In this document: positions 7,283 through 33,935 of the stretch, in pieces | How the letters are laid out: every line of letters starts with the position of its first letter | How positions within the stretch are numbered: the first letter of the stretch is position 1 | Notes under the pieces: generated by a model | What the model was told of the DNA's origin: nothing | What the model saw: the letters and a program-made list of their open reading frames with translations, nothing else | Database searches by the model: none | Made by a program: the position numbers and the translations under genes | NCBI RefSeq assembly: GCF_000424465.1 | Contig: NZ_KE384194.1 | Location: 77,145-141,144 of the forward strand | Direction of reading: 5' to 3' | DNA length: 64,000 nucleotides | From: Butyrivibrio hungatei NK4A153 | GTDB lineage: Bacteria > Bacillota > Clostridia > Lachnospirales > Lachnospiraceae

Positions 7283-8278
7283 TCAGATTTCTCTCATTCG
7301 ATCCTCAAGGTTATCCAATGTATCTATGACAACACTGTCATACATCATCATAACGACGTTCTCGTCATACTGCCCGATCTGCTGAGCGTTTTCTTTTTTC
7401 TCAACAACATTTCTGTAAATGAATGACGGGAAATCAACTCCCGCGCCGTAGGCATGAAGATAAGCTCCTCCGAATCTCGGATTGATCTCAGAAAGATAAT
7501 ACTCACCGTTCTGGTAAAAGAGATCCATATCGAGAGGTCCGTTGAACTTAAATACCTCAAGCGCTTTCTGTGCAAATTCAAAGAGTTTCTCATCCTTGAA
7601 TGATATTGTCTTGTTTGCTCCACCGATCGTAGTAGAGATTTTTTTCTTGGAGAAAACCGCAACGGGCTTGTGGCTTATTGTATCGACATAGATATCTGCA
7701 TCCATATCTTTTCCCGTCATAAGCTCCTGAATAATAAGCCCCGGATCTTTCTCGGTAACTTCCTTAAGAAGTTCATATGTATCAACCTTGCGTGCTCCTA
7801 CGCTTCCGCTTCCGGTTCTCGGCTTAACGAAGACAGGAAGATTTATCTTGCCTTCTTTGTAATCCTTGTCGAAATCATCGAAACAGCCGTAAGTCTTTAC
7901 CGTGTTGATTCCTTTTTCCATGAGGTACTTGTACATCTCAAATTTATCAAAGCAAAGCTTTGCAGTTTCCTCATATGGAGCAAGCACTTCAACACCGAGT
8001 TCCTCAAACTCTTTTCTGTGAGCCGAAAGAATTGCGATCTCAGGGTCGATAAGTGTCGTTACCGCATCAATCTTTTCTTTCTTGCAAATATCAAGAATTG
8101 TCGGGATGTACTCAGGCGCCGTTATAAGCGGAACTCTATAGCAAACATCCGCAAAAGCGGGAGCCGGCGCATATACGCTGTTATCCGTAACAACCATATG
8201 AACCTTGTCCCCAAGCGTTTTTCTAAAATCTTTTAAAAGTTCACAGCGTCTTCCGACACTGCAAAATAAAATATTCAT
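7283..8278 (-). CDS. ATP-grasp enzyme paired with PglC (candidate amino-sugar N-acyl ligase)
   Basis: A 331-residue ATP-grasp protein. Residues 1-100 form a pre-ATP-grasp Rossmann-like domain starting CSVGRRCELLKDF. The ATP-grasp domain shows VKPRTGSGSVG at 151-161 (ATP-binding lysine and flexible loop) and SEINPRFGG near 263-271 (metal-binding Glu/Asn). An in-frame start 57 bases further upstream exists, but AGGAG seven bases before the ATG at 8278 decides the shorter start. The gene begins one base after the stop of pglC. Neisseria PglB2 carries an ATP-grasp domain fused to the PglC-type transferase and yields a glyceramido sugar. By analogy this protein may join a carboxylic acid to the 4-amino group of the PglE product. 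Confidence 0.75.
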   Translation of the reverse strand: MNILFCSVGRRCELLKDFRKTLGDKVHMVVTDNSVYAPAPAFADVCYRVPLITAPEYIPTILDICKKEKIDAVTTLIDPEIAILSAHRKEFEELGVEVLAPYEETAKLCFDKFEMYKYLMEKGINTVKTYGCFDDFDKDYKEGKINLPVFVKPRTGSGSVGARKVDTYELLKEVTEKDPGLIIQELMTGKDMDADIYVDTISHKPVAVFSKKKISTTIGGANKTISFKDEKLFEFAQKALEVFKFNGPLDMDLFYQNGEYYLSEINPRFGGAYLHAYGAGVDFPSFIYRNVVEKKENAQQIGQYDENVVMMMYDSVVIDTLDNLEDRMREI

Positions 8279-8279
8279 T

Positions 8280-8900
8280 TTACTGCTCCTTTGGTTTTGT
8301 ACCTGTAAATGCCTCCATTGTGGCATCTGTGGCACTGTTTATGTCATCGTGCTTAAATACTACAGCGATGGTCATGAAAAAAATCTTGAGATCGAAAAGG
8401 AATGATATATTTCTTGCGTAATATACATCTTTCTCAAATCTGTCTTCCCAGCTGAGAAGATTCCTTCCGTTAACCTGTGCCCATCCCGTAAGTCCCGGTC
8501 TTACATCATGTCTGTGCCTCTGTTCCTCGTTATAGAGGGGAAGGTATTTGACAAGAAGGGGCCTGGGGCCTATGAAACTCATGTCACCCTTTAAAATGTT
8601 GAAAAACTCAGGAAGTTCATCAAGGCTGGTCGCTCTGAGCTTTTTACCAAACTCGGGAAGTCTGTCTTCATCGGGAAGAAGATTTCCGTTTTCATCCTTT
8701 GCATCAGTCATTGTCCTGAATTTGTAAAGGTTAAAAACTTCTCCGTCCTTGCCGGGCCTCGGCTGTCTGAAAATAACAGGACTTCCGAGCTTAACTCTTA
8801 CGAGTATCGCAAGTATAAGGTACAACCAGCAAAAAGGTATGAGTACCAGTAAAGACAGTATTATATCTATCAATCTCTTAATAAATTTTGAATAAATCAT
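8280..8900 (-). CDS. pglC: Monotopic phosphoglycosyltransferase, PglC-like initiating sugar transferase
   Basis: A 206-residue small phosphoglycosyltransferase that moves a sugar-1-phosphate from a UDP-sugar to undecaprenyl phosphate. The N-terminal re-entrant hydrophobic helix (about 10-35) is followed by FRQPRPGKDGEVF, KFRTM, the catalytic Asp94-Glu95 dyad in SLDELPEFFN, and GDMSFIGPRPLL. The length equals that of PglC, without the extra N-terminal membrane domain of WbaP or WcaJ and without a fused acetyltransferase. CGGAG lies six bases before the ATG. Next to PglE and PglF homologues, its donor is likely a UDP-diamino-trideoxyhexose derivative. Confidence 0.9.
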   Translation of the reverse strand: MIYSKFIKRLIDIILSLLVLIPFCWLYLILAILVRVKLGSPVIFRQPRPGKDGEVFNLYKFRTMTDAKDENGNLLPDEDRLPEFGKKLRATSLDELPEFFNILKGDMSFIGPRPLLVKYLPLYNEEQRHRHDVRPGLTGWAQVNGRNLLSWEDRFEKDVYYARNISFLFDLKIFFMTIAVVFKHDDINSATDATMEAFTGTKPKEQ

Positions 8901-8935
8901 TCGTCACTCCGAAATATGCCGTGTCCAAAGCATTA

Positions 8936-10207
8936 TTAGTCAAAGCATCTTCTTATGATCTCAATGATCATATCCTGCTGCTCTTTTGTCATCTTGATGT
9001 CACTTGGAAGGCATAAGCCTCTGTTAAAGATATCGGCTCCGACATCCTTAAAGCCTTCCTCTTCAATGTAAGCATTGCTGCGGGCTCTTCCGTTTCCGTG
9101 CTTTGTGATAAATGCGTTTGACCTGTAGATAGGCTGCATATGCATCGGCTTCCAGATAGGACGTCCCTCTGCGTTATTCTCAGCGATAGCACTAAGGATC
9201 TCTGTGGGACATGTCTTTCCGGGCTCGGGATTGTAGAGAACTTCTTTTTCTCCGCGAACCTGTCTGCACATTACATCCTCATCTATAATCATGCATGAAA
9301 GCCAGAAATTCGGCTCACTGTTCTTCTTATCGTAAGGATTCATCTTTACGGGAAGTCCCTTGAGGCCTTCTTTGTAACGCATATAGATTTCTTTTTTCTG
9401 AGCGACATGCTCTTCAAGATAAGGAATCTGTCCCCTTACAACTCCGGCAATAACGTTGCTCATTCTGTAGTTGTAGCCAAGTTCCTCATGCTGATACCAG
9501 GGTGCATCCTCTCTTGCCTGAGTGGACCACTTACGCACCTTGTGAGCATCTTCTGTACTGTTTGTAAGGAACATCCCTCCCGCAGAACCGGTTATGATCT
9601 TGTTTCCGTTAAAAGAGAGAATGCTGTAATCACCAAAAAGTCCCGTCTGCTTTCCCTTGTATGTTGCGCCGAGAGATTCAGCCGCATCCTCAACTATAAG
9701 TGCATTGTGCGCACGGCAGATTCTCTGGATTCCGTCTATCTTTCCGGGTGTTCCGTAAAGATGTGCAACGACTACAAGTCTTACATCGGGATATGTCTCA
9801 AAAGCTCTTTCCAGTGATTCGGGATCCATATTCCATGTATCTTCTTCCGTATCGATAAATACAGCTTCACCGCCCTCATAAGCAATGGGATTTACTGTAG
9901 CATCGAAAGTAAGATCGGAACAAAATACTTTCTTTCCCTCAAGTGTTCCGTGTCCGATCTTAGGCTGACCGTAAAGTCTTTCACCTGCAAGTTTTATCGC
10001 AAGATGAAGCGCAGCTGTTCCCGATGAAAGTGCAACAGCCTCCTTGCATCCGATCTTTTCACATATAAGTTTTTCAGCCTCGTTTATATTCGCTCCGACG
10101 GTTGACATCCAGTTGGTGTCATATGCCTCCTGCACGTACTTGATCTCATCACCGTGCATTGTCGGGGATGAAAGCCAGATTTTTTTCTGAAAGGGTCTAA
10201 TTTCCAC
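8936..10207 (-). CDS. pglE: UDP-4-keto-sugar aminotransferase (PglE-like, DegT/DnrJ/EryC1 family)
   Basis: A PLP-dependent sugar aminotransferase that would convert the 4-keto product of the neighbouring dehydratase to a 4-amino sugar with glutamate. ALSSGTAALHLA binds the PLP phosphate, VEDAAESLGATY holds the PLP-binding Asp, and SFNGNKIIT carries the internal-aldimine lysine near residue 203. WKPMHMQP near the end is also typical of PglE. The protein is slightly longer than PglE because of an insertion at about 305-345. ATG at 10213 would overlap the upstream stop (ATGA), but GGAGG lies only one base from it and seven bases from the GTG at 10207, so GTG is preferred. Confidence 0.87.
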   Translation of the reverse strand: MEIRPFQKKIWLSSPTMHGDEIKYVQEAYDTNWMSTVGANINEAEKLICEKIGCKEAVALSSGTAALHLAIKLAGERLYGQPKIGHGTLEGKKVFCSDLTFDATVNPIAYEGGEAVFIDTEEDTWNMDPESLERAFETYPDVRLVVVAHLYGTPGKIDGIQRICRAHNALIVEDAAESLGATYKGKQTGLFGDYSILSFNGNKIITGSAGGMFLTNSTEDAHKVRKWSTQAREDAPWYQHEELGYNYRMSNVIAGVVRGQIPYLEEHVAQKKEIYMRYKEGLKGLPVKMNPYDKKNSEPNFWLSCMIIDEDVMCRQVRGEKEVLYNPEPGKTCPTEILSAIAENNAEGRPIWKPMHMQPIYRSNAFITKHGNGRARSNAYIEEEGFKDVGADIFNRGLCLPSDIKMTKEQQDMIIEIIRRCFD

Positions 10208-10209
10208 GA

Positions 10210-12162
10210 TCATTCCTCCGTATTGATTTTTTCAGCTAGCTTTTTAAGCATTTCTTTGTGTTCTTCCGTACTGTCCGCTTCGTTATTGGCGGGATGGTAT
10301 GTTGTAACTATCTCTTTTACGAGAGTTCTTATCTCAGGTGATTCCTCTTTTGCCGCAACATTAAGTCGCTCGAGCCCCGAGAAAAACTTCATCTCATCAA
10401 GCTCAATAGGCTTTCCGATATGGATCATCTTATTTTCTGTATCCTGAAGTCCTTCTTCATCCATGAGCATCTCTTCGTAGAGTTTCTCACCCGGGCGAAG
10501 TCCCGTAAATTCAATTCTGATATCCTCTCCGACCTTGTATCCGGAAAGTTTTATGAGGTTCTCTGCAAGATCGAGTATCTTTACGGGTTCACCCATATCA
10601 AGTACGAATATCTCGCCGCCCTTTGCAAATGCTCCTGCCTGAAGCACGAGGGAAACCGCCTCTGAAATTGTCATAAAGTATCTGATGATATTAGGGTCTG
10701 TAACCGTAACGGGTCCGCCTGCCGCAATCTGTTTCTTAAAGAGCGGGATAACAGAACCGTTTGAACCAAGTACATTACCAAATCTGACCGCCACGAATTC
10801 CGTATCGTAGTGCTTATTCATCGTCTGAACGATCATCTCGCAGATTCTCTTACTTGCACCCATTACGTTCGTGGGATTTACAGCCTTATCGGTTGAGATC
10901 ATAACAAACTTCTCGGTGCCGTTCATAGCTGCTGCCATAGCTGTCTTCCAGGTTCCGAATACATTATTCTTGATAGCTTCATTCGGACTGTCCTCCATAA
11001 GAGGCACGTGCTTGTGTGCAGCTGCATGGTATACGATCTCAGGCTTATACTTTTCGAATATCATATTGATCCTGAGTGTATTTCTTACTGACGCAATGAG
11101 AACAACAAGGTCAAGATCGGGATATTTTGTCTTGAGCTCCTGCTGAATGTCATAGGCATTATTCTCGTAAATATCTACAATTATAAGTCTCTTGGGCTTA
11201 TGTCCGGCAACCTGTCTACAGAGCTCCGATCCGATAGATCCGCCGCCACCTGTTACCATAACGGTCTTTCCGCTGACATAACCTGCGATGGAGTCAATAT
11301 CGACCGCAATTGGATCTCTTCCCAGAAGGTCTTCTACTTCAACATCGCGAAGTCTCGATACGTTAACCTCGCCGCTTAAAAGCTGGTACATTCCGGGAAG
11401 CGCACGCATCTTACAATGTGTATTTTTACAGATATCAAGTATCTTCTTAAGTTCCTGTCTTGAAACAGAAGGAATGGCAACAATGATCTCATCAATATCA
11501 TACAGATCCGCGCATTCTACAATCCTGTCTCTTCCGCCGACAACCCTGATTCCCTGAATATATCTGCCCCACTTGTCGGAATCATCATCGATGATACATT
11601 TGATGGACATTGTGTTGTAATTGCTCTTGATAATATCTTTAATGATAATATTGGCAGCTTCACCCGCTCCTATTACCATTATTGCTTTGGCATTTTTGTT
11701 CTTCTCCGCATGGTGCTTGGCACTTCGCAAAAATCTGTAAGAAAATCTGCTTGCAAAGATCAGTGCAATGAGCAAAACCAGATAGAGGAAATAATAGGTC
11801 TTTGGCTCAGCCTGATGTCCCGGAACTTTGAAAAACTGAAGTCCAACTGCCGTGATACCGCTTGAAACGGCACATCCCATTACAAGGTTCTGCAGTTCTC
11901 TTTCTCCGGCATATGCCCATAAGCTGTCATAGAGCTTAAAAACATAAAACACAATAAGGGTTACGATAATATTTATAGGCAAATAAGTAATCGTAGTTGT
12001 CAAGAAGTGTTCTTCAACCTGATCGAGATCAAGATCGTATCTCATAAGTACAGGTATAAAGCTCACCAGGATTATACTTATCACATCGTAAATAACAAGT
12101 ACCGCACGCCTATACAATTTTTGATAATTAAAAGGTTCTTTTTTCTTCTTTTCCATAGCCAT
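10210..12162 (-). CDS. pglF: Membrane UDP-GlcNAc 4,6-dehydratase (PglF/CapD-like)
   Basis: A 650-residue protein: about four transmembrane helices (20-150), a first Rossmann domain with VIGAGEAANIIIK, then the catalytic SDR domain with VTGGGGSIGSELCRQV at about 305-320, SVRN, AAAHKHVPLMED and ISTDKAVNPTNVMGASKR. The last block supplies the Thr-Asp-Lys triad that replaces the usual Tyr-x3-Lys in membrane 4,6-dehydratases. It retains C5 configuration and makes UDP-4-keto-6-deoxy-GlcNAc for the PglE-like enzyme, with which it overlaps or abuts. Either ATG at 12162 or 12156 could be the start; neither has a strong ribosome binding site. Confidence 0.9.
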   Translation of the reverse strand: MAMEKKKKEPFNYQKLYRRAVLVIYDVISIILVSFIPVLMRYDLDLDQVEEHFLTTTITYLPINIIVTLIVFYVFKLYDSLWAYAGERELQNLVMGCAVSSGITAVGLQFFKVPGHQAEPKTYYFLYLVLLIALIFASRFSYRFLRSAKHHAEKNKNAKAIMVIGAGEAANIIIKDIIKSNYNTMSIKCIIDDDSDKWGRYIQGIRVVGGRDRIVECADLYDIDEIIVAIPSVSRQELKKILDICKNTHCKMRALPGMYQLLSGEVNVSRLRDVEVEDLLGRDPIAVDIDSIAGYVSGKTVMVTGGGGSIGSELCRQVAGHKPKRLIIVDIYENNAYDIQQELKTKYPDLDLVVLIASVRNTLRINMIFEKYKPEIVYHAAAHKHVPLMEDSPNEAIKNNVFGTWKTAMAAAMNGTEKFVMISTDKAVNPTNVMGASKRICEMIVQTMNKHYDTEFVAVRFGNVLGSNGSVIPLFKKQIAAGGPVTVTDPNIIRYFMTISEAVSLVLQAGAFAKGGEIFVLDMGEPVKILDLAENLIKLSGYKVGEDIRIEFTGLRPGEKLYEEMLMDEEGLQDTENKMIHIGKPIELDEMKFFSGLERLNVAAKEESPEIRTLVKEIVTTYHPANNEADSTEEHKEMLKKLAEKINTEE

Positions 12163-17555: not shown

Positions 17556-18092
17556 TTATAACATTTTTTCCATAAGTATCATATCACTTTTTTGACCGTC
17601 ACTGCACTCAACCTGCGCAAGATCTTTTGTCTTTACAAATCCCGCATTTGAATAGCTCTTTATTGCAACTTCATTATAGGCAAATGCCTTAAGGAAAACT
17701 TTTTTAAGTCCTATGGTCTCTTTGGCATACGTAAGCGCAAGAACCGCGGTCTCATTGCCGTAGCCTTTGCTTATCGCGTCATCCTCACCGATAAATATGC
17801 CATATTCCGCAGATTTTTCTTCCTTGTCGATATCCCTAAAGTACACGCTTCCAACGGGTTTGTTGTCATTATCGTTCTCACAGATAATAAACTGCTCAAC
17901 AAGTCCCGTCATAATCTTTGTCTTAAACCAGTTTTCATGCAGTTCTTTTGTAAACACTTCTTTGAAAACGAAATTATTCCTGACTCTCTCGTTATTTCTC
18001 CACTTTACGATAAGATCTGTGTCTTCCAAGGTAATCTTTCTTAGAGATACCTTTTCTCCGCGGATTACAAAGCCCTGTGTTCCTCTTTCCAT
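17556..18092 (-). CDS. GNAT-family N-acetyltransferase (candidate sugar N-acetyltransferase)
   Basis: A 178-residue GNAT protein. SLRKITLEDTDLIVKWRN is the beta1-alpha1 start seen in PseH/RimJ-like enzymes, AEYGIFIGEDDAISKGYGNETA covers the beta4 strand and acetyl-CoA pyrophosphate loop, and YNEVAIKSYSNAGF is the classical C-terminal motif. Two substrates fit the locus: the 4-amino group of the WecE product two genes upstream (a WecD-like role giving dTDP-Fuc4NAc), or the 4-amino group of a pseudaminate precursor (a PseH-like role). Sequence alone does not decide. GGAG lies about eight bases before the ATG, and the gene starts two bases after the preceding stop. Confidence 0.72.
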   Translation of the reverse strand: MERGTQGFVIRGEKVSLRKITLEDTDLIVKWRNNERVRNNFVFKEVFTKELHENWFKTKIMTGLVEQFIICENDNDNKPVGSVYFRDIDKEEKSAEYGIFIGEDDAISKGYGNETAVLALTYAKETIGLKKVFLKAFAYNEVAIKSYSNAGFVKTKDLAQVECSDGQKSDMILMEKML

Positions 18093-24585: not shown

Positions 24586-26352
24586 TTATCTGTCTGCGAC
24601 AGCTTTGCCATCTTTAATGCTGTAAACCATATCGCACTTCTCGATTGTCTGAAGTCTGTGCGCGATAATAACAAGTGTTTTTCTTCCATGGAGCTTGTTT
24701 ATTGAATCCATGATAGCTGCCTCAGTCTCATTATCAAGAGCTGAAGTTGCTTCATCAAGAACAAGTACCTCCGGATCTTCGAAAAGAGCTCTCGCGATAC
24801 CAATTCTCTGTCTCTGTCCGCCTGAAAGACGAATTCCTCTCTCACCGATCTTGGTATCAAGACCTTCGGGAAGAGATTTAACATATTCATCGAGTGACGC
24901 TTCTTTAAGCGCCTGCCAAACTTTGGCATCGTCAATATCTTCATCGGCATAGCCGAAAGCAACATTCTTTCTTATTGTTGAATCTATCATAAAGATTGTC
25001 TGCGGAATATAGCCGATATTCTTGAGCCATCCGCTGTAGTTCTCCATTACATCAACACCGTCGGCATAGATATGTCCGCTCTCTGTCTTAAGAAGACCGA
25101 GCATAACGTCTACAATCGTAGTCTTGCCCGCACCTGATGTACCAACGATACCTACGGACTTTCCTACAGGAACTTCCATGTCCGCATGATTAAGCACATA
25201 TCTGTCAGCACCCGGATATTTATAAGTGATATCCTTAAGTGAAATGGTCTTATTAACGGGAAGCTTCTTGGTCTCAAGCTTCTTCCTGTAATCTTCGCTG
25301 TTGTATGAAATAGAGCTGTCGTTAATCTCCTCCTGAAGATTGTCGCTTACGTTCATGAGGAACGGCTCAAAGTAAGCAATACTTGTGAGGTAATTGTTTA
25401 TTCTGTTGGCACTTGGAAGGAGACGAGCTGCGGCCAGACCAAGAACAGAAAACTGAGCAAACAATGTTGCATCATTTGTTCCGCAAGCCATTGCAAACAA
25501 CATATATCCAAGCATTCCCGCAATAGCAATAGTCTCAATCAAAAGTCTGGGCGTTGAATTGTAAAGATTGTACTTCTGAACCGCATTGACATATCCTGCG
25601 CCACAATTTGCATATCCGTTAATAAAATAGTTTTCTTTATTGGCAATCTTTATCTCTTTTATTCCTGTGACGGATTCATCAATCCACTTATACAGCCCGC
25701 TGTAATAATCCTGATTTTCTTCTCCCGCTTTTGTCATAACAGGCTTGATAACATACTTGATAACAAGAAGCACAACCACAAGAAGCGATGCTATAGAAAC
25801 GGTCATTACAGCATCCTGAGTCAAAAGCATAATAACAAGACAAGCAAAAACAATAATCTCACTTATAAGCTGCAAAGAACTCAGAATAAGCCCGTACATA
25901 TTATTTACATCAGACGTTATGTTTCTCTGGATAACACTGGTATCTGCATTTAAATAGTACTCGTAAGGACGCTGCATAAAATTGATCATCATTCTTCTTG
26001 AAGTTGCAAACTGATTTGTGTATACGAACTTAAGTTGAACTTTGTTCATAAAGAAAAGAAAAATGTTCTTTACAACAAAAACAATTATCATGATCACCAT
26101 TATGATTGCAACAAACACTCTGGGGCCATCCTCAGCTCCGCCAAGATTAAAAACCGTATAATATACATATGAGAGTTTCTCACTCTTATCTATAAGATCA
26201 GGCCTTATCAAAATTTCCATGATGGGAGCGATAAGAGCAATTCCTAATGCTTCAAGTATTCCTCCGATAAGCATCATAAAAACAATGCCGACCATCTGCT
26301 TTTTCTGTCTTGCATCGAGCAAGAGCATCAGTTTCTTATAAATCTTACGCAT
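24586..26352 (-). CDS. ABC-type lipid-linked oligosaccharide flippase (PglK-like)
   Basis: A 588-residue half-transporter with a six-helix membrane domain (1-330) and a nucleotide-binding domain. Walker A is GTSGAGKTT at 404-412, the signature LSGGQRQRIGIARAL begins at 509, and Walker B VLVLDEATSALD is near 529-540, with the switch His in IIAHRL. AAARLLPSANRINNYLTSI in the last membrane segments closely matches PglK of Campylobacter, which flips the undecaprenyl-diphosphate heptasaccharide. With PglC, PglE and PglF homologues in the same operon, it is the likely exporter of the module B repeat unit. A drug or peptide exporter is possible but less likely. Confidence 0.85.
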   Translation of the reverse strand: MRKIYKKLMLLLDARQKKQMVGIVFMMLIGGILEALGIALIAPIMEILIRPDLIDKSEKLSYVYYTVFNLGGAEDGPRVFVAIIMVIMIIVFVVKNIFLFFMNKVQLKFVYTNQFATSRRMMINFMQRPYEYYLNADTSVIQRNITSDVNNMYGLILSSLQLISEIIVFACLVIMLLTQDAVMTVSIASLLVVVLLVIKYVIKPVMTKAGEENQDYYSGLYKWIDESVTGIKEIKIANKENYFINGYANCGAGYVNAVQKYNLYNSTPRLLIETIAIAGMLGYMLFAMACGTNDATLFAQFSVLGLAAARLLPSANRINNYLTSIAYFEPFLMNVSDNLQEEINDSSISYNSEDYRKKLETKKLPVNKTISLKDITYKYPGADRYVLNHADMEVPVGKSVGIVGTSGAGKTTIVDVMLGLLKTESGHIYADGVDVMENYSGWLKNIGYIPQTIFMIDSTIRKNVAFGYADEDIDDAKVWQALKEASLDEYVKSLPEGLDTKIGERGIRLSGGQRQRIGIARALFEDPEVLVLDEATSALDNETEAAIMDSINKLHGRKTLVIIAHRLQTIEKCDMVYSIKDGKAVADR

Positions 26353-26425: not shown

Positions 26426-27502
26426 TCAATCTGTTATCGCTTCGTTCTGTCTGTGTATCTCGGGCTCTTCGTACTTGTCCATAAAATCATCGCCGAGATA
26501 ATGCTTTTCTTTTACAAAATTAATCGAATCAACAACAGTATATACAGACACAAGTCTGTCGAATGAGAGCCCCTCTATAAAGTTAAGCATCTCCATAGGG
26601 AAAGATCCGTCAAGCACGATTGCATCGGGAAATGCCTTTGTATAATCTAGGTAATCTCTCGGGTGCTGTTTTATCATTACCACAGCATCCCTTCCATCTA
26701 TATTACCATAGGCGTCAATAATGTCTCTGAATATACGCTCTCTGGTCTCCAGATCGCACAGAGGCTCTGACAAAACAAGAAGTGTCTTTCCGTCTTTTTC
26801 CTTAAAGAGCTTATCCCTAAGTCCCTTAATATCATCGACAAAGAGTTCCAGCATCTTCTCTTTTTCCTGCGAAGTAAGTCTGTCCGTGAGCATCTTCCTC
26901 GGAAGTTCGACATATTTTTTACAAGGGTAAGGAAGCACCGATATGTTATTAACTTCCATGTCTATGCAATATCTTCCGTAGCCGTTCTGGATATGAATAA
27001 GTCCCAGAGATGCGATAAATGCTTTGATCTTAAAATGACCTCTGTTATCATAACGAGCCGTATCATAATATCTGATGCAGTCGAGTCCGTCCTCAACGGC
27101 GTGATATCGTATCTTCTTGTAGTTAAGATAATATCCTATCGGATCGGAATCGCAGAATACATAGATATCCTTATATTTCTTAAAATCAACGGGAATGTAC
27201 TGTTCCTGAAGTTTTCCGAACTTTCTGCAAAACTTTATTCTCTTTATCATGTTTGACACGATATTTCCGGAATCGGTCTTAAGCTCTTTGAGCTCAGGGA
27301 AAAAAGAATCTTCCTTCTCATCATACTCAAAAACCTCTTCAAAGATATCGCTTTTCTTCGCTCTCTCTATCATGCCGCCAAATTTATTCGACATCTTTGA
27401 AAGAACAAGCGAAGCCTTTTTGCCGTCAGCAATATACAATTCTTTTAAGCATGCCACATACACATGGTAAAAAGTGTGACAGACATAAATTCTATCGTGC
27501 AT
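26426..27502 (-). CDS. Glycosyltransferase, GT52/sialyltransferase-like
   Basis: A 358-residue soluble protein. Its start RIYVCHTFYHVYVACLKEL, the acidic VEDGLDCIRYYD segment near 135-145, and IKQHPRDYLDY near 280 follow the layout of GT52 and related capsule sialyltransferases, in which the conserved E/DG and HP motifs bind the CMP-sugar. No membrane segments are seen. Lying three genes from the CMP-pseudaminate pathway, it is the best candidate in the window for the enzyme that transfers the nonulosonate to the lipid-linked glycan. The family call rests on motif pattern only, and other GT-B families remain possible. Confidence 0.55.
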   Translation of the reverse strand: MHDRIYVCHTFYHVYVACLKELYIADGKKASLVLSKMSNKFGGMIERAKKSDIFEEVFEYDEKEDSFFPELKELKTDSGNIVSNMIKRIKFCRKFGKLQEQYIPVDFKKYKDIYVFCDSDPIGYYLNYKKIRYHAVEDGLDCIRYYDTARYDNRGHFKIKAFIASLGLIHIQNGYGRYCIDMEVNNISVLPYPCKKYVELPRKMLTDRLTSQEKEKMLELFVDDIKGLRDKLFKEKDGKTLLVLSEPLCDLETRERIFRDIIDAYGNIDGRDAVVMIKQHPRDYLDYTKAFPDAIVLDGSFPMEMLNFIEGLSFDRLVSVYTVVDSINFVKEKHYLGDDFMDKYEEPEIHRQNEAITD

Positions 27503-27541: not shown

Positions 27542-28600
27542 TCAGTGTTTCCTTAGATCTCTGTAAAACCACAGCAATCTGTAATAAATATAAAACAGAA
27601 GGTGTGACTTCATCTGCATTTTAATAAGCTTCTTTTCTTCCGCGTGAACTTTCTCAATATAATATGCATTATCCTGAAAACCGGGGAAAGTCTCTTTCAT
27701 CTCTTTCGCAAGCTTCTTTGCAAATCCATAACTGTTCTTAACCCCTGATTTCCTGGGCATTACGGAAAAAAGTGTGTTCACATAAAATAACACAGTATAT
27801 TGAAACTCAATCTCATCTTTATAGTCTTCAAAGTAGCCGTTTTCCTTAGCTTCTGTAAGTATCTGTCTTCCGGCGGTCATTCGGTCTTCGAGGTTCTTCT
27901 CGGAAATGCTGTGAACCGTTGAAGCATTATGCTGATAATAAAAATAAAGCGGCTCTTCAATATATTCGAAATGCTTGGACCTTATCATCCAGGTATTACT
28001 TACCGCATTGTCCTCGTAAAAAATATCTTCGGGGAAGATATCAAGTTTTTCTTTTGTTCCCGGAACATAATCGCCGACTATTATTTCTCTCTTATAAACC
28101 TTCACAACAAGACTTCCGGTCTCTATGAGAAGATTCTTGTAGCGCTGCTTATCCATAATGCCCGTTTGGGAAAAATTGTTGTTGTGGACTACCTTTCCGA
28201 CTTCGAAGGTATGTTTATCCACAAAACAATAGTCGCATCCGACCATGTCAGCTCCCGTCTCTTCGGCCTTCTTAATAAGCCTTTCGTAGTAATCGGGAAC
28301 AATCCAGTCATCGGCATCTATAAATCCAAGCCACTCGCCCTTTGCAACGGCAAGTCCGATATTCTTGGCTCCGCCCTGATGGTGATTAACTTCGGACCTT
28401 ATGGCAATGAAATTCTCCGGATACTTCTTGCTGTAATCAAGAAGTATATCATAAGAATTATCCGTCGAGCAGTCATCGACCGCTATAATTTCAAAGTCCT
28501 TGGGCTCAAGCGTCTGTGCCACAAGACTCTTTAAACAATAATCAAGTTTTCCGTCAGCTGCCATGTTGTAAACAGGCACTATTATACTCAGTTTTTTCAT
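27542..28600 (-). CDS. Glycosyltransferase, GT2 family
   Basis: A 352-residue inverting GT-A glycosyltransferase. SIIVPVYNMAADGKLDYC opens the fold, VDDCSTDNSY and FIDADDWIVPDYY give the nucleotide- and metal-binding acidic motifs, and HHQGGAKNIGLAVAKGEW is the usual central block. The C-terminal part (about 230-352) is helical without clear membrane segments. GGAG lies five bases before the ATG, which overlaps the preceding pseG stop by 4 bases. The sugar specificity is unknown. Confidence 0.87.
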   Translation of the reverse strand: MKKLSIIVPVYNMAADGKLDYCLKSLVAQTLEPKDFEIIAVDDCSTDNSYDILLDYSKKYPENFIAIRSEVNHHQGGAKNIGLAVAKGEWLGFIDADDWIVPDYYERLIKKAEETGADMVGCDYCFVDKHTFEVGKVVHNNNFSQTGIMDKQRYKNLLIETGSLVVKVYKREIIVGDYVPGTKEKLDIFPEDIFYEDNAVSNTWMIRSKHFEYIEEPLYFYYQHNASTVHSISEKNLEDRMTAGRQILTEAKENGYFEDYKDEIEFQYTVLFYVNTLFSVMPRKSGVKNSYGFAKKLAKEMKETFPGFQDNAYYIEKVHAEEKKLIKMQMKSHLLFYIYYRLLWFYRDLRKH

Positions 28601-29682
28601 GTAAGCTCCAAAATTGCCTCAGCTATCTTTTTGGCCCCGTCTCTTCCGACTATGCTTCGGGCCGAGTCACTCATCTTCTGTCTAAAAGCTTTATTATCCA
28701 CTGACGCAACGCCCCAGGTCACAATCTTGCGCAGCACCTTGTCATCCTCACGCACATCTCCCGCGTATTTGGCCGCTCCGACTTTGTCAAAGCCTTTTAC
28801 AAATTCCATCTGATTGTCTGCCATACTGAACACTACTGTCGGAACGCCGATCGCACACAACTCGTAAAGCGTTGTCCCACCTGCAGTTACAGCAAAATCA
28901 GCTTTTTCCATAATTTCCGACATATCCGTCACACATTCATGAAGCGTAATCTCCGAATGTTTACCGGCAAGTTCTTTTAATTCCTCTTTGTAATCGTCTT
29001 CAAAAAGAGCTCCCACTATAACATCACACGAAATCTCCGATTTAAAACACGGCACATTACTGCCAACTTCCCGCTCTTCATAAACACTCTTAAGCATAGT
29101 TCCGATAACGCGATAAGGATCTGTTCCTCCCGTAGAAAGAAATGCTCTTCCCGCAATATCTTTTACATTGTAATCAATGTCTGAAAACTGTTTTCTCAAG
29201 GGTGCATATTCTCCACCCAGAAGTTTTACAGGTGCACTGTACATGTTCTCATCAAAGATCAGATCGTAATTGACAACCATGTCAACCGGATAGTCAAACT
29301 TGCAAAGATCGTCAATATAGCCGGTCTTCGTGCTTGGACTGTTCTCTTTTATAGACTCGTTCAGAAGATTAAAATACTCTTCTGTCATAAAATATGAATC
29401 TATCAGGAAAAAATCCGGCTTCTCATCTCTGAGCATCTCGTCCATTACAGGAAAATCCGTTAGTGGATCCGAAAAAACAGAGTGAAGTATCGTTGCATTG
29501 TAGAAAACTCCGTCCTCCTCAGACAAGGTCTTTAAAAGATCCGCGCTGCTTTCGTCAGATAAGATAAACTCCACATCTGCCCCAAGATCCGACAGCTCTT
29601 TTGCGATTGTCATACACCTGCGTATATGTCCTGTCGCTATTATTCCGTTACCGTTTGCCTTGATCCAGACTTTTTTTCCCAT
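28597..29682 (-). CDS. pseG: UDP-2,4-diacetamido-2,4,6-trideoxyhexose hydrolase (PseG-like)
   Basis: A 361-residue GT28-like UDP-sugar hydrolase. ATGHIRRCMTIAKEL carries the catalytic histidine (about His19) and the GH-x2-RC signature of PseG. GYIDDLCKF and LLGGEYAPLRKQF are further PseG blocks, and TAGGTTLYELCAIGVP is the UDP-binding C-terminal motif. It releases UDP to give the free 2,4-diacylamino-trideoxyhexose that PseI condenses with phosphoenolpyruvate. It is clearly not NeuC/LegG-like, since no UDP-GlcNAc 2-epimerase motifs are seen. GGGAGG lies five bases before the ATG. It is longer than the roughly 275-residue Campylobacter PseG. Confidence 0.85.
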   Translation of the reverse strand: MGKKVWIKANGNGIIATGHIRRCMTIAKELSDLGADVEFILSDESSADLLKTLSEEDGVFYNATILHSVFSDPLTDFPVMDEMLRDEKPDFFLIDSYFMTEEYFNLLNESIKENSPSTKTGYIDDLCKFDYPVDMVVNYDLIFDENMYSAPVKLLGGEYAPLRKQFSDIDYNVKDIAGRAFLSTGGTDPYRVIGTMLKSVYEEREVGSNVPCFKSEISCDVIVGALFEDDYKEELKELAGKHSEITLHECVTDMSEIMEKADFAVTAGGTTLYELCAIGVPTVVFSMADNQMEFVKGFDKVGAAKYAGDVREDDKVLRKIVTWGVASVDNKAFRQKMSDSARSIVGRDGAKKIAEAILELT

Positions 29683-29720: not shown

Positions 29721-30788
29721 TTAGTTAAAATCTTCGTACTTAAGCGGTTCGCCTCTGTACAGGTCATGCGAAGCTCTCTTTCCGACAATATTGTCATATT
29801 CTATCGGAGGAAGTCCGTTGCCCGGACGTATCGACCTTATATTCTTAGAAGTGAGAACTTCTCCCTGCTTGATATCTTCTACAACAAAAAGAGATCTTGC
29901 TCCCTCTCGCTCTGTTTCCTGAACGGGAGTAAGCTTATATTCTTTGCTTCCAAGAGCTTTTTCAACCATTCTCACATTCTTTACAAGCTCCGCAAACTCC
30001 TGCGGTTCCATTGAAAAAGCTCCGTCAGGACCTCCGTCACTTCTCTTTAGTGTGAGATGCTTTTCTATCATTCTTGCACCGAGCGCAACAGAAGCTACCG
30101 CAACCGCGCTTCCCATAGTATGATCGGAAAGTCCCATAACACAGCCGTATTCCTGTGCAAGCGTCGGTATCATATTAAGATTTACATCTTCATATGGCGT
30201 TGGATAAGCGGATGTGCATTTCAAAAGAATTACATCCTTATTTCCCTCTGCAAGACACGCCTCTATTGCAAGCCTTATGTCGCTCTCCCTTGCCACTCCA
30301 GTAGCGATGATCATCGGCTTTTTCTTTGATGCGCACTGCCTGATAAGCGGAATATCCGTTATCTCATAAGAAGCGATCTTGTATGCGGGCATATCCATCT
30401 CTTCCATGAAATCAACAGCCGTGCTGTCAAAAGGGGATGAAAAGCAATCAAGTCCCAGCTTTTTTGCCTCTTCGCAGAGCTTTGGCTGCCAGTCCCAAGG
30501 GGTGTATGCTTCCTCATAAAGCTTATGAAGAGTTGTACCGTCCCAGATAGTTCCGCCCGTAATCTGAAAATAGCTCTTGTCAGAATCGATTGTTATCGTA
30601 TCAGCCGTGTAAGTCTGCAGCTTTATGGCATCAACACCTGCCTCTTTTGCAGCATAGATTATCTCGATTGCCCTGTTAAAATCCTGCAGATGATTGGCTG
30701 ACATCTCAGCAATAATATATACAGGATCGTTTGCACCGATATAATGACCTGCAAGACTGATTCTCTGATTAAGTTCAAACATAGACAT
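29721..30788 (-). CDS. pseI: Pseudaminic acid synthase (PseI), NeuB family
   Basis: A 355-residue synthase that condenses a trideoxy-hexose with phosphoenolpyruvate. The TIM-barrel part has YIIAEMSANHLQDFNRA, KLQTYTADTITIDS, the WDGTTLHKLYEEAYTPW segment, FSSPFDSTAVDFMEE, YKIASYE and GLSDHTMGSAVAVA. A C-terminal SAF domain (about 290-350) ends the protein. YKIASYE and the Trp-rich segment fit PseI rather than sialic acid synthase. Two starts, Met1 and Met3, both have plausible ribosome binding sites (GGAGG and AGGA). It sits between the PseG gene and the CMP-sugar synthetase fusion. Confidence 0.92.
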   Translation of the reverse strand: MSMFELNQRISLAGHYIGANDPVYIIAEMSANHLQDFNRAIEIIYAAKEAGVDAIKLQTYTADTITIDSDKSYFQITGGTIWDGTTLHKLYEEAYTPWDWQPKLCEEAKKLGLDCFSSPFDSTAVDFMEEMDMPAYKIASYEITDIPLIRQCASKKKPMIIATGVARESDIRLAIEACLAEGNKDVILLKCTSAYPTPYEDVNLNMIPTLAQEYGCVMGLSDHTMGSAVAVASVALGARMIEKHLTLKRSDGGPDGAFSMEPQEFAELVKNVRMVEKALGSKEYKLTPVQETEREGARSLFVVEDIKQGEVLTSKNIRSIRPGNGLPPIEYDNIVGKRASHDLYRGEPLKYEDFN

Positions 30789-30807: not shown

Positions 30808-32730
30808 TTACTCAAATCTGTTTTTTGCCATGTACTCATCATTTGTCCAAGGCTCTCTTGCAACAAAAAGACTTCCGTCCTTTTTCTTTACATAGACAGC
30901 CGGAAAATAATGTATGAACAGAGGAGTCAGGCAAATCGTGTATCCGCCTGCATTTGTAAAGACTACCCTGTCCCCCGGCTCAAGCTTACGCTCATTCTCT
31001 GCGGGGAACAATCTGTCATATTCCATACAGGTAGCGCCGCATATCATCTGCGTAGAGATAACTTCTCTGTTCTCATCATTCTTATATTCAAGTCTGTGAG
31101 GATACACCCTTCTTGTGACCTGAGGATTTAAGTTTACTCTGCTTCCGTCGATCACTACATATGTGTGCTCTCTGACTTTCTTAGTATCAATAACACTTGT
31201 CACAAAATCAAAGCTCGATGAAACCATAGAAACTCCGGGCTCCATAATAAGCTTTGTCTTGCTCACATCAAATTTTTCCGAAAGAACTTCCGCAATTGCC
31301 GGAACATAGTCTCTAAAGTCAGGCTTTCCCTTTACTCCGCCGTAGTAGCCGCCGCCCATATCGACATATTCAAGATTGAGATTATACTCATCTGCTACTA
31401 TCACTGCCACTCTTGCTAGTGCTTTGAATGCATTGATTGTTCTGGACTTTGTCGATGAATGAAGATGAAGCCCCACTATCTCAACATTTGCGTTTTCCTT
31501 AAGCTTTTCTATCACGTTCTTAAGCGCGCCGTTTTCGTAGCAATATCCGAACCTGCTGCCCTCTTCATCTGCCAAAACCTCATCCGGTATCAGCTTCTGA
31601 AGGTCGTAGTTTACTCTAAGCCCAACTTTGAGCTTCTTGTCCTTATTTGCCGCAGCGATCTCTTTTACCCACTCAGGTTCATAGTTTGAATCAAGATTAA
31701 CTATTCCGCCGCCCAGGAGCACTTCTTCAAATGCGCTTCTATCCTTGATCGGTCCGTTAAATATCACCTGATTTGGTCTATATCCAAGCCTTTTTGAAAG
31801 TTCATACTCTTCCTTTGATACCACTTCCGCATAAAAGCCGTTATCCTTAAAGTGCTTAAGGAGCCAGGGAAGTGAATTGGTTTTTACGGAAAAAGAACAG
31901 ATGTAATTATTCCATCCCTTCTTCAAAGCGCCTTTCAGCAATTCAATATCCGCATCTAGTTTACTCTCGTCAACTCTGTAATACGGAGTTTTGAGAGCCG
32001 TATCATCAAATTTGGAAAAAGAATCCTTTGCCGTCAGACTTCTTTTTCCCTCGGCGCAAAGCCTCTTAAACTTCTCCTCAGCTATCTCCCAATCCTTAGG
32101 AGTATCTATATCCTGAACTTCGTCCTCATCAAGAACGATCGGAACCATATCGTCCACATCTGTTGTTCCGTCTCTAAAAAAAGCATCAGTTCTGCAAGCA
32201 TAGAACTGGCCGCTGTCATGATAAAGTTTCTCAAGATCCTGAGATCTCACCGTGGCAAATTCAGGATATCTCCGCACAAGTCTGCCGTTTTCCACAACAA
32301 AACCTCTCTGCGGAGGATATGAAAACAGGCAAACAGGCGTTACCGACTCATGCTCATCAAGCTTAACCATCGCTTCTTTTAGCCTATCAGCCGTTATGAA
32401 TGGAGCCGTTGGATATATGCAACAGAACTTATCAAAGTTCTTTCCGTTTTCCTTATATGTATTAAGTACTTCCGCTATAACCTGATCGGTTGTCGCATAG
32501 TCACCTGCTGTTTCGTCAGATCTGAAAAAAGGAATCTCGGCACCTGCTGCCTTCGCTATCTCAGCTATCTTCTCATCATCCGTAGACACCATTACCGTAT
32601 CAAATGCACCACTCTCTATCGCAGCGCTTATTGAATAAGCAATTATTGGCTTTCCGCAAAAATTCTTTATATTCTTGCCCGGTATTCTTTTGCTTCCGCC
32701 TCTTGCGGTAATTATCGCAACAGAGCTCAT
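30808..32730 (-). CDS. pseF: Fusion: CMP-pseudaminate synthetase (PseF) plus fold-III PLP decarboxylase-like domain
   Basis: A 640-residue two-domain protein. Residues 1-225 are a CMP-nonulosonate synthetase with ARGGSKRIPGKNIK at 9-22, YPTAPFIT near 106-113 and HDSGQFYA. Residues 240-640 are a complete ornithine/diaminopimelate decarboxylase-type module: PLP lysine Lys283 in SVKTN, HLHSS at 422-426, the PLP-phosphate loop DMGGGYYGG at 457-465, EPG at 497-499, and Cys568-x3-Asp572 in ATCMEYD. The arginine that normally follows EPG is valine. PseF proteins are normally single-domain. The ATG overlaps the upstream ATP-grasp stop by 4 bases with GGAGG seven bases before it, so the two are translationally coupled. 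The decarboxylase substrate is unknown. Confidence 0.88.
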   Translation of the reverse strand: MSSVAIITARGGSKRIPGKNIKNFCGKPIIAYSISAAIESGAFDTVMVSTDDEKIAEIAKAAGAEIPFFRSDETAGDYATTDQVIAEVLNTYKENGKNFDKFCCIYPTAPFITADRLKEAMVKLDEHESVTPVCLFSYPPQRGFVVENGRLVRRYPEFATVRSQDLEKLYHDSGQFYACRTDAFFRDGTTDVDDMVPIVLDEDEVQDIDTPKDWEIAEEKFKRLCAEGKRSLTAKDSFSKFDDTALKTPYYRVDESKLDADIELLKGALKKGWNNYICSFSVKTNSLPWLLKHFKDNGFYAEVVSKEEYELSKRLGYRPNQVIFNGPIKDRSAFEEVLLGGGIVNLDSNYEPEWVKEIAAANKDKKLKVGLRVNYDLQKLIPDEVLADEEGSRFGYCYENGALKNVIEKLKENANVEIVGLHLHSSTKSRTINAFKALARVAVIVADEYNLNLEYVDMGGGYYGGVKGKPDFRDYVPAIAEVLSEKFDVSKTKLIMEPGVSMVSSSFDFVTSVIDTKKVREHTYVVIDGSRVNLNPQVTRRVYPHRLEYKNDENREVISTQMICGATCMEYDRLFPAENERKLEPGDRVVFTNAGGYTICLTPLFIHYFPAVYVKKKDGSLFVAREPWTNDEYMAKNRFE

Positions 32731-33935
32731 CTGTTATCCTCCAGCTCAAATTCACTAAGTATTGCATCTGCATATCCGTCAAGTTCAAATGGCGAATCCG
32801 CTTCAATGCAAAAATATCCTCTTCCCATAACCGAAGCGCCGTTTGTCACTTTTCCAAGGTACATGCCTTTCTTCAGATTGCAATTCCAAGCCTTTAACGG
32901 ATATTTTTTGAAAAGTTCCTTCTCATCGGGAACCTTATTCACTCTCACATTTTCAAAATCAAAATATCTGATAAGCATGTTCTTTTCCACATCAGGCTCA
33001 AAAGAATATGATTTATCAAGCGCGGGAACTGCATATTTAATAAACTCCGTAACTTCATCAACGCCGCTTGCAAGTGGAGTGAAGAGGTTATGAAGATTAT
33101 GTCCCGAAGGTCTTGCAGAAATTTCAATTATAAAGGGATTTCCGTCATTGTCCTTGATTATGTCCGCGTGAATGATATTGCTCTTAAAGCCTATCGCTTC
33201 TCCCGCTTTTGCAATTAGCTCTTTTGTCTTTCTGAAAAATTCTGCGTTTTTATCGGTTTCGATTACGGAATAATATCCGACGCACTCCCTGTACGGGGGC
33301 GGGGTATTCTTTTTTCCCCTAAGAAGAATGAGTTTAAACTCGCCGTCCACAAAAACTCCGTCCACGCCGTACTCGGTTCCTTGAACACAGGTCTCAACGC
33401 AATAATCTTCATCGTAGGGCTGACCTGAAAGGAATTTCTCTTTAAGTTCCTGTGGAGTATTGAACATCTCTACTCCGCGGCTTCCCGATCCAAATCTGGG
33501 TTTTACTATCACGGGATAAATCGTGTTGATCTCATCAATATCGGTATTTTCTTCTCCTGCCGGAATCAGGTAAAGTTCTGCATTTCTAAGACCTTCTTCC
33601 GCGAGTATCTTATGAAACTCGTACTTATCCGTGCATACATTTGCCGCATCATAAGAAACACCGCAAAGATTATATTTATCATTAACGGCACCTGTCGTAG
33701 TCAGATATCTACCGATTGGAACAGGCAGAACCACGTCAGGCTTATTTCCATCCCTATCCAATATCTCAAAGACCTTCTGCGGATCTCTTATATCTACAAC
33801 AAAGGAAGCATCGGCCGCTTTAAGACCAGGTGCTTCCGGGTTTCCGTCAAGAGCTATCACTTTAAGGCCCAGCTCTTTTGCCTTATTTATCACATAAATT
33901 GATTCGGAGCTTGCTCCTATAACTGCTGCTGTCAT
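32727..33935 (-). CDS. ATP-grasp ligase, first gene of the pseudaminate-type operon
   Basis: A 402-residue ATP-grasp protein of the carbamoyl-phosphate-synthase/BL00235-like type. Residues 1-110 form a pre-ATP-grasp domain beginning VIGASSESIYVI. PVIVKPRFGSGSRGVE at 141-156 has the ATP lysine (Lys145) and glycine loop, and EISARPSGHN at 271-280 the metal-binding Glu. A further 120 residues form a C-terminal domain. Such enzymes join a carboxylate to an amine using ATP. It is coupled to the PseF/decarboxylase fusion, so it may ligate an amino acid or a decarboxylated amine to a sugar. AAGGAGG precedes the ATG by nine bases, and a strong promoter lies just upstream. Confidence 0.78.
   Translation of the reverse strand: MTAAVIGASSESIYVINKAKELGLKVIALDGNPEAPGLKAADASFVVDIRDPQKVFEILDRDGNKPDVVLPVPIGRYLTTTGAVNDKYNLCGVSYDAANVCTDKYEFHKILAEEGLRNAELYLIPAGEENTDIDEINTIYPVIVKPRFGSGSRGVEMFNTPQELKEKFLSGQPYDEDYCVETCVQGTEYGVDGVFVDGEFKLILLRGKKNTPPPYRECVGYYSVIETDKNAEFFRKTKELIAKAGEAIGFKSNIIHADIIKDNDGNPFIIEISARPSGHNLHNLFTPLASGVDEVTEFIKYAVPALDKSYSFEPDVEKNMLIRYFDFENVRVNKVPDEKELFKKYPLKAWNCNLKKGMYLGKVTNGASVMGRGYFCIEADSPFELDGYADAILSEFELEDNR

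Follow-up and report, generated by a model that had tools for sequence, protein, structure and literature searches.

We analyzed an open reading frame (ORF) of Butyrivibrio hungatei NK4A153 (genome size 3.37 Mb) in which PseF, the synthetase that forms cytidine monophosphate (CMP)-pseudaminate, is joined to a pyridoxal phosphate (PLP)-dependent decarboxylase. The ORF lies on contig NZ_KE384194.1 within a stretch of 64,000 nucleotides (positions 77,145 to 141,144) that was analyzed as a whole and is called the window below. An original prediction, made by a model from the sequence alone, had described the fusion and proposed that the cell couples activation of a pseudaminate-type sugar to production of an amine or modified amino acid that decorates the same glycan. 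The ORF belongs to a tight minus-strand set that comprises an ATP-grasp ligase gene, the fusion, which overlaps the ligase gene by 4 bases, the genes for PseI and PseG, a family-2 glycosyltransferase (GT2), an unclassified protein, and a PglK-like transporter of the ATP-binding cassette (ABC) type (Table 1).

Table 1. Features of the window discussed in the text. Positions are those of the window; scores are given with the cut-off of the family model.
Feature	Position	Strand	Details
PseF-PLP decarboxylase fusion	30808..32730	minus	640 amino acids, ATG start, zero internal stops
PseF (CMP-pseudaminate synthetase) domain	32065..32730	minus	residues 1-222; TIGR03584 match
Fold-III PLP decarboxylase domain	30856..31992	minus	residues about 246-625; PF02784 and PF00278
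Codons of Cys568-Met569	31024..31029	minus	catalytic Cys and the Met that replaces the amine-binding acid
ATP-grasp carboxylate-amine ligase	32727..33935	minus	402 amino acids; PF13535, 53.1 bits (cut-off 27)
PseI pseudaminate synthase	29721..30788	minus	TIGR03586, 489.9 bits (cut-off 340.25)
PseG UDP-sugar hydrolase	28597..29682	minus	TIGR03590, 154.2 bits (barely above cut-off 153.55)
Family-2 glycosyltransferase	27542..28600	minus	PF00535
Possible CMP-pseudaminate transferase	26426..27502	minus	fold resemblance of model
PglK-like ABC transporter (oligosaccharide flippase type)	24586..26352	minus	PglK, 330.4 bits (below cut-off 1000)
PseH-like GNAT acetyltransferase	17556..18092	minus	TIGR03585, 79.2 bits (under cut-off 93.1)
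Second ATP-grasp ligase, PRK12767-type	7283..8335	minus	NF009406, 431.6 bits (cut-off 271)

The ORF is a real fusion of PseF and a complete fold-III PLP decarboxylase. The PseF model TIGR03584 matched residues 4-222 as a full-length match (272.9 bits, cut-off 205.7), which bore out the cytidylyltransferase assignment of the original prediction, and PF02348 covered residues 4-186. In a Foldseek comparison this domain was 43% identical to the CMP-pseudaminate synthetase of Aeromonas caviae (9ftb). The predicted activity, formation of CMP-pseudaminic acid (CMP-Pse), agrees with the setting beside PseI and PseG. In the remainder of the protein, PF02784 (residues 272-503) and PF00278 (residues 481-595) both exceeded the Pfam cut-offs, and these domains together with the catalytic Lys, His, Glu and Cys place this part among the fold-III decarboxylases.

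A scan of genomes recovered 164 relatives of the PLP domain, and the best 80 were kept as loci; all counts per 80 loci refer to these, and gene counts rest on tblastn of the fetched flanks. PseF and the PLP domain were fused in frame in 22 of the loci and were separate same-strand neighbors in 43. PseF was elsewhere in the fetched stretch in 12 loci and was not found there in three, L062, L096 and L074. The PLP gene is at a contig end in L062 and L096; L074 has room available, yet neither PseF nor PseI was found in it by tblastn. The fused loci are titled Butyrivibrio in 18 cases and come from Lachnospiraceae metagenome-assembled genomes in four, and 12 of the 22 are in isolate genomes. Carriers of the fusion include B. 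hungatei DSM 14810 (L034) and B. proteoclasticus P6B7 (L033). Because the same fusion recurs in this way, an assembly join is ruled out, as is the sequencing error that had been named as a possible refutation. The loci nearest to that of the window, among those found, were from Butyrivibrio. At the protein level, PF02348 and PF02784 occurred together in 54 of the 120 matches listed, out of 1390 passing. In a quick tree of 88 rows, three changes, gains or losses, were needed to account for fusion, at least two of them forced by starred branches; P0055, which has both domains in one protein, grouped among unfused genes.

The same neighbors recurred across the 80 loci. PseF was detected in 77, PseI in 76, PseG in 74 and the ATP-grasp ligase in 67, and all four were present jointly in 61. 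The other neighbors were the protein of the 26426-27502 type (66 loci), the PglK-like transporter (59), the GT2 (57) and WecE (30). In a family-level sample, a PLP match at E ≤ 1e-60 was found in 15 of 299 genomes, eight with the close type (at least 52% identity), as compared with PseI over cut-off in 84 of 397 genomes. The PLP-bearing variant is therefore a minority among producers of Pse.

The active-site landmarks listed in the original prediction (Lys283, the His of HLHSS, the GGG loop, the Glu of EPG, Cys568 and Asp572) were each present in 80 of 80 loci. The residues invariant in all of these loci were K283, R393, H424 (of HLHSS), G459-461, E497, R540, Y543, C568, M569, E570, D572 and Y597, and we take a Glu of the E497 type to pair with the ring nitrogen of PLP. 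The change from EPG-Arg to EPG-Val that had been noted earlier is real and common, with V at position 500 in 74 loci and I in six. In a distant comparison set of 120 rows (P0121-P0240), position 569 was M in 109, L in nine and I in two, position 500 was T in 113, S in five, M in one and A in one, and R540 was replaced by K in 119. The conserved Arg or Lys at position 540 could meet an acidic portion of a sugar conjugate.

Two of these positions bear on the reaction. In ornithine decarboxylase (ODC), arginine decarboxylase (ADC) and diaminopimelate decarboxylase (DAPDC), an acid at the position equivalent to 569 grips the free side-chain amine of the substrate, and FigC has Met there (PMC7857480). 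Because Met569 takes the place of the amine-binding acid, as in FigC, the sequence suggests that the side chain of the substrate has no free amine. Of seven reference rows, three LysA-type proteins had Glu at this position, FslC had Met, BtrK had Thr, the NspC of this genome had Leu, and a decarboxylase encoded elsewhere in the same genome (L002) had Ser. Absence of an acid beside the catalytic Cys, which FslC and BtrK show among the decarboxylases of conjugated amino acids, is thus found in the fusion and is not exclusive to that group, as NspC has Leu. At the other position, R290 of FigC aligns with V500; it lies 64 residues before C354, the same spacing as was counted for ELG-Arg in 7kh2, and it contacts the PLP phosphate through its backbone amide (PMC7857480). 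Because the Arg works in this way, EPG-Val is weak evidence for any change of reaction.

The PLP domain was not a member of LysA, FslC or NspC as defined by their NCBIfam models. Its best NCBIfam rows were FslC (NF041039, 156.1 bits, cut-off 500), LysA (TIGR01048, 142.5 bits, cut-off 297.9) and the exosortase-associated decarboxylase (106.6 bits), all far below the cut-offs, and NspC (TIGR01047) gave 63.8 bits (cut-off 409.05). FslC/FigC was nearest by profile score, by PDB sequence search and as the first Foldseek row. In the tree, the domain and its relatives formed their own clade, apart from LysA and BtrK and on the FslC side, where the FslC and NspC branches are long and the fork is drawn open.

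To view the PLP gene in a wider setting, we compared 13 distant loci, consisting of eight matches from the family-level sample (37-47% identity, all fetched with flanks) and five farther matches from class- and phylum-level samples, which are short. PseF, PseI and PseG were not found by tblastn (>45 bits) in the eight family-sample loci, the five short loci not being covered. An ATP-grasp gene directly adjoined the PLP gene in eight of the 13 (L102-L106, L109, L149 and L152), a divergent ATPgrasp_ST gene was near it in L108, and no ATP-grasp gene was seen beside it in L107, L148, L150 and L151. A Bac_transf (PglC-type) gene was adjoining or fused in nine of the 13 (L102, L104, L105, L106 and L148-L152). 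In L106, the ORF at 9458-11542 (minus strand) is itself a Bac_transf-PLP fusion (PF02397 and PF02784) with an ATP-grasp gene directly after it, and the same two domains were found together in eight of the 120 matches listed for this L106 protein (P0121 and P0123-P0129), one of which is the query itself. The PglC-type/PLP fusions are spread over the tree, with at least three gains or losses forced among the six rows used. In L102, PglF-like (by eye), LegC-like and PglC-type genes precede the ATP-grasp/PLP pair; the ATP-grasp ligase there is of the PRK12767 type (518.3 bits on NF009406), like that at 7283-8335 of the window. The PLP/ATP-grasp pair seems to be a portable module that serves amino sugars, the Pse locus being one of the places where it resides. 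In L148 and L151, the neighbors of the distant PLP gene were a PglC-type gene and, as assigned by eye, genes for an HpcH-like aldolase and a branched-chain-type aminotransferase, with no ATP-grasp gene in the short stretch covered.

We propose that the operon-like set makes a Pse that carries a decarboxylated amino acid and that the PLP domain acts on the amino acid while it is borne by the sugar, a proposal that we hold to be moderately probable. The ATP-grasp ligase at 32727-33935 would link an amino acid through its side-chain carboxyl to a sugar amino group. We favor a side-chain linkage because a PLP enzyme needs a free alpha-amino and alpha-carboxyl group, and with this linkage the simplest amino acids would be glutamate, yielding a 4-aminobutyryl group, or aspartate, yielding a beta-alanyl group. 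The simplest acceptor would be the 4-amino group on the product of PseC, later N7 of Pse. PseG and PseI would pass the conjugate onward, the PseF domain would activate it with cytidine triphosphate, and the fused PLP domain would strip the alpha-carboxyl from the sugar-borne amino acid. Decarboxylation is placed late, on the sugar, because the fusion partners take activated sugar. This would give CMP-Pse whose 4-aminobutyryl or beta-alanyl group has a free primary amine, and the sialyltransferase-like enzyme at 26426-27502 would receive it. We infer the order of steps, the sugar site and the amino acid; the gene set, the fusion, its conservation, the clade and the active-site residues are observed.

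Several observations support this proposal. Met569 is as in FigC, and FigC, SbnH, AcsE, MccE and BtrK are all decarboxylases of conjugated amino acids (PMC7857480). The PLP domain is nearest to FslC/FigC in sequence and stands apart from LysA and BtrK in the tree. Two kinds of activated-sugar enzyme, PseF and the PglC-type transferase, occur as fusion partners of the decarboxylase. Its fusion or adjacency to PseF and the presence of an ATP-grasp gene recur across the 80 loci, and an ATP-grasp gene adjoins it in most of the distant loci as well. There are also precedents, described below, in an amino-acid cap involving a PF13535 protein in Clostridium difficile and a glutamate-derived acyl group on legionaminate in Clostridium botulinum. 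A PseC-like gene was present in the fetched stretch of 29 of the 80 loci, at 1.0-1.3 kb from the ATP-grasp gene in 17 of those, and the L079 copy passes TIGR03588 (456.8 bits); this fits acylation of the PseC product. A point on the other side is that a PseH-like GNAT protein is encoded in the same window. To see whether the ATP-grasp enzyme replaces PseH, we compared genomes with and without the PLP gene. PseH matches (E ≤ 1e-13) less than 3 kb from PseI were found in none of eight genomes with the Pse-type PLP gene and in 12 of 59 without it (p 0.19, counted by eye); this comparison used the 67 of 80 genomes with PLP status, leaving out the other 13, and two of the eight settings are broken (G137 is on a 7.7-kb contig, and PseI and the PLP gene of G037 lie on separate contigs). 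The earlier suggestion that the glycan is decorated with an amine or a modified amino acid fits, and the adjoining ATP-grasp ligase, which the original prediction did not mention, would supply the joining step; a free amino acid as the substrate is less likely than a sugar-joined one.

The arrangement could be an instance of a general route in gut and rumen Firmicutes, in which an ATP-grasp ligase joins an acidic amino acid to an amino sugar through the side chain, a dedicated fold-III decarboxylase trims it on the nucleotide- or lipid-bound sugar to leave a cationic aminoalkanoyl group, and the decarboxylase is fused to the next sugar-using enzyme (PseF or PglC-type). In this lineage the result would be a new class of cationic pseudaminic acids. 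We put this wider proposal forward tentatively, as possible and somewhat short of probable.

Other explanations for the gene set were considered. One of them, the nearest to the wording of the original prediction, is that the PLP domain turns a free amino acid into a small amine and that the ATP-grasp ligase couples either this amine to a carboxyl, in a uronic acid or at C1 of Pse, or the product (e.g., 4-aminobutyrate) to a sugar amine; we regard it as unlikely. The decarboxylase machinery is complete and the ligase is adjacent, as would suit this explanation; however, the amine-binding acid of ODC, ADC and DAPDC is Met in all 80 loci, as in FigC, both fusion partners handle sugars, and no fusion of the decarboxylase to an amino-acid enzyme was found among the matches listed. 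Alternatively, the pair might decorate another amino sugar of the same polysaccharide, such as 4-amino-4-deoxyfucose (Fuc4N) or a 4-amino initiating sugar, with the join to PseF merely keeping the genes together. The eight distant relatives in loci without a PseF, PseI or PseG match, several of them beside PglC-type genes, are compatible with such a role, as is the presence in the window of a PglF/LegC/PglC-like set and a second ATP-grasp gene. We nevertheless regard it as quite unlikely, given that the close clade is tied to PseF and PseI in nearly all loci, as compared with WecE in 30 of 80 within the fetched flanks.

The original prediction had also suggested racemization, on the basis of EPG-Val, and the loss of EPG-Arg, with V or I instead in all 80 loci, would suit a racemase or epimerase producing a D-amino acid. 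This seems highly improbable, since E497, C568, D572 and H424 are kept in every locus, the FigC Arg acts by its backbone amide, and the best sequence and fold matches listed were decarboxylases with the sole exception of an antizyme inhibitor, found in the PDB sequence search. It is scarcely credible that the domain is a housekeeping enzyme, LysA or ODC, that became fused accidentally or was joined through an assembly error. The fold is the same, but the score on the LysA model is less than half its cut-off, Met rather than Glu is beside the Cys, the tree places the domain apart, the fusion is found in isolate genomes, and a LysA-type gene (270.5 bits, just under the LysA cut-off) and an NspC gene (435.4 bits, over its cut-off) are present separately in the genome. 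We rejected this candidate on these grounds: judged by its sequence, the PLP domain is not a housekeeping LysA. Placement within LysA, without an association with nonulosonate loci in other genomes, had been named as a second possible refutation; the domain instead forms its own clade and is associated with PseF and PseI elsewhere.

The best PDB row for the ATP-grasp ligase of the set was 4dim, named phosphoribosylglycinamide synthetase, followed by L-amino acid ligases, D-Ala ligases and others, and the protein has conserved columns across 68 rows. PseI is the only one in the genome over cut-off. For the protein encoded at 26426-27502, neither Pfam nor NCBIfam gave a family at E 0.001, and no PDB sequence matched at E 1. 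Its AlphaFold2 model (predicted local distance difference test, pLDDT, 79.5; predicted template modeling score, pTM, 0.80) had CMP-sialate transferases as Foldseek rows 1-8 (E 3e-7 to 5e-6, with weak TM scores of 0.40-0.50), and UDP-N-acetylglucosamine 2-epimerases and other glycosyltransferases from row 9; this hint from the fold makes it a candidate for a new pseudaminyltransferase family. The PseH-like GNAT protein may serve Pse or Fuc4N, the latter suggested by WecE, and the remaining PseH-model matches in the genome were at most 43 bits. At 7283-12162 (minus strand), PglF-, LegC- and PglC-like genes are followed by the PRK12767-type ATP-grasp ligase gene, with no additional same-strand ORF of 100 amino acids between them, and the initiating sugar may be aminoacylated.

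Other relevant genes lie elsewhere in the genome. PseC and PseB are located on a different contig from the window. In this assembly, the sole PseB over the family cut-off (L138, 11566-12572, plus strand, contig C2) is split between two reading frames, and its first piece contains a stop; it is either a pseudogene or the product of a sequencing error. A second nonulosonate-like locus (L139, contig C10), perhaps of the legionaminate type, encodes a NeuB-type synthase that scored 318.8 bits, under cut-off, on the PseI model; by eye, it also has aminotransferase genes and one resembling a CMP-sugar synthetase gene. On contig C11, the decarboxylase mentioned above (L002, 3-2625, minus strand) groups with BtrK and is beside an AMP-binding ligase and a 74-amino-acid ORF that had no Pfam match and is carrier-protein-like by eye; it is perhaps part of a set for carrier-bound amino-acid decarboxylation.

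Flagella, capsules and S-layers carry coats of nonulosonic acids, whose N-acyl groups influence charge and recognition. If our proposal is true, a decarboxylated aminoacyl group would shift an acidic sugar toward a zwitterion, and glycan synthesis would join the known jobs of conjugated-amino-acid decarboxylases. The recurrence of the PseF-decarboxylase partnership in related gut bacteria points to an undescribed decoration of surface sugars. The module also provides exact gene sets with which to seek such sugars in gut and rumen bacteria, and a likely function for proteins labelled merely "pyridoxal-dependent decarboxylase" or "carbamoyl phosphate synthase-like". The enzyme families are known; the combination and its setting are without description in the open-access literature searched, in which no title or abstract opening among those listed dealt with a PseF-decarboxylase fusion or such an acyl group. 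No paper there combined Pse, ATP-grasp and a decarboxylase, or a pyridoxal-dependent decarboxylase, ATP-grasp, a polysaccharide and a glycosyltransferase.

PseF, which to our knowledge is normally a single-domain protein, here bears a decarboxylase. BtrK has the same fold as the PLP domain but uses a carrier protein, has Thr beside the Cys and Tyr at the stacking His, and falls outside the PLP clade in the tree; its ligase partner, BtrJ, is presumably an ATP-grasp enzyme. In butirosin synthesis, BtrK acts on carrier-held glutamate to give carrier-bound 4-aminobutyrate (PMC7857480). In the type B flagellin locus of C. difficile, the gene for a PF13535 ATP-grasp protein (CDR20291_0245) is near an FdtB-like amino-sugar aminotransferase gene, and the glycan of the ATP-grasp mutant ends at a trisaccharide, before the amino-acid cap (PMC5207246), the structure of which is given in PMC5207245. 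The sugar there is 3-amino-3-deoxyfucose (Fuc3N) rather than Pse, and the four locus genes quoted include no decarboxylase. On C. botulinum flagellin, the legionaminate bears an N-methyl-glutam-4-yl group (PMC5207245); the portions of these two papers used here describe no decarboxylase for either precedent. A flagellin-modification operon of Shewanella includes an ATP-grasp_4 gene (PMC3765264), and Pse in Clostridium is treated in PMC13317340, the main text of which does not contain the words "decarboxylase" or "ATP-grasp". The closest enzyme is FigC/FslC (7kh2), with the same fold and Cys-Met-x-x-Asp loop; it differs in its 28% identity, in having ELG-Arg rather than EPG-Val, and in serving a siderophore (PMC7857480). 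A related reaction, by description only, is that of MccE in microcin C maturation, in which an aminocarboxypropyl group is decarboxylated after the peptide-nucleotide conjugate that bears it has been completed (PMC7857480).
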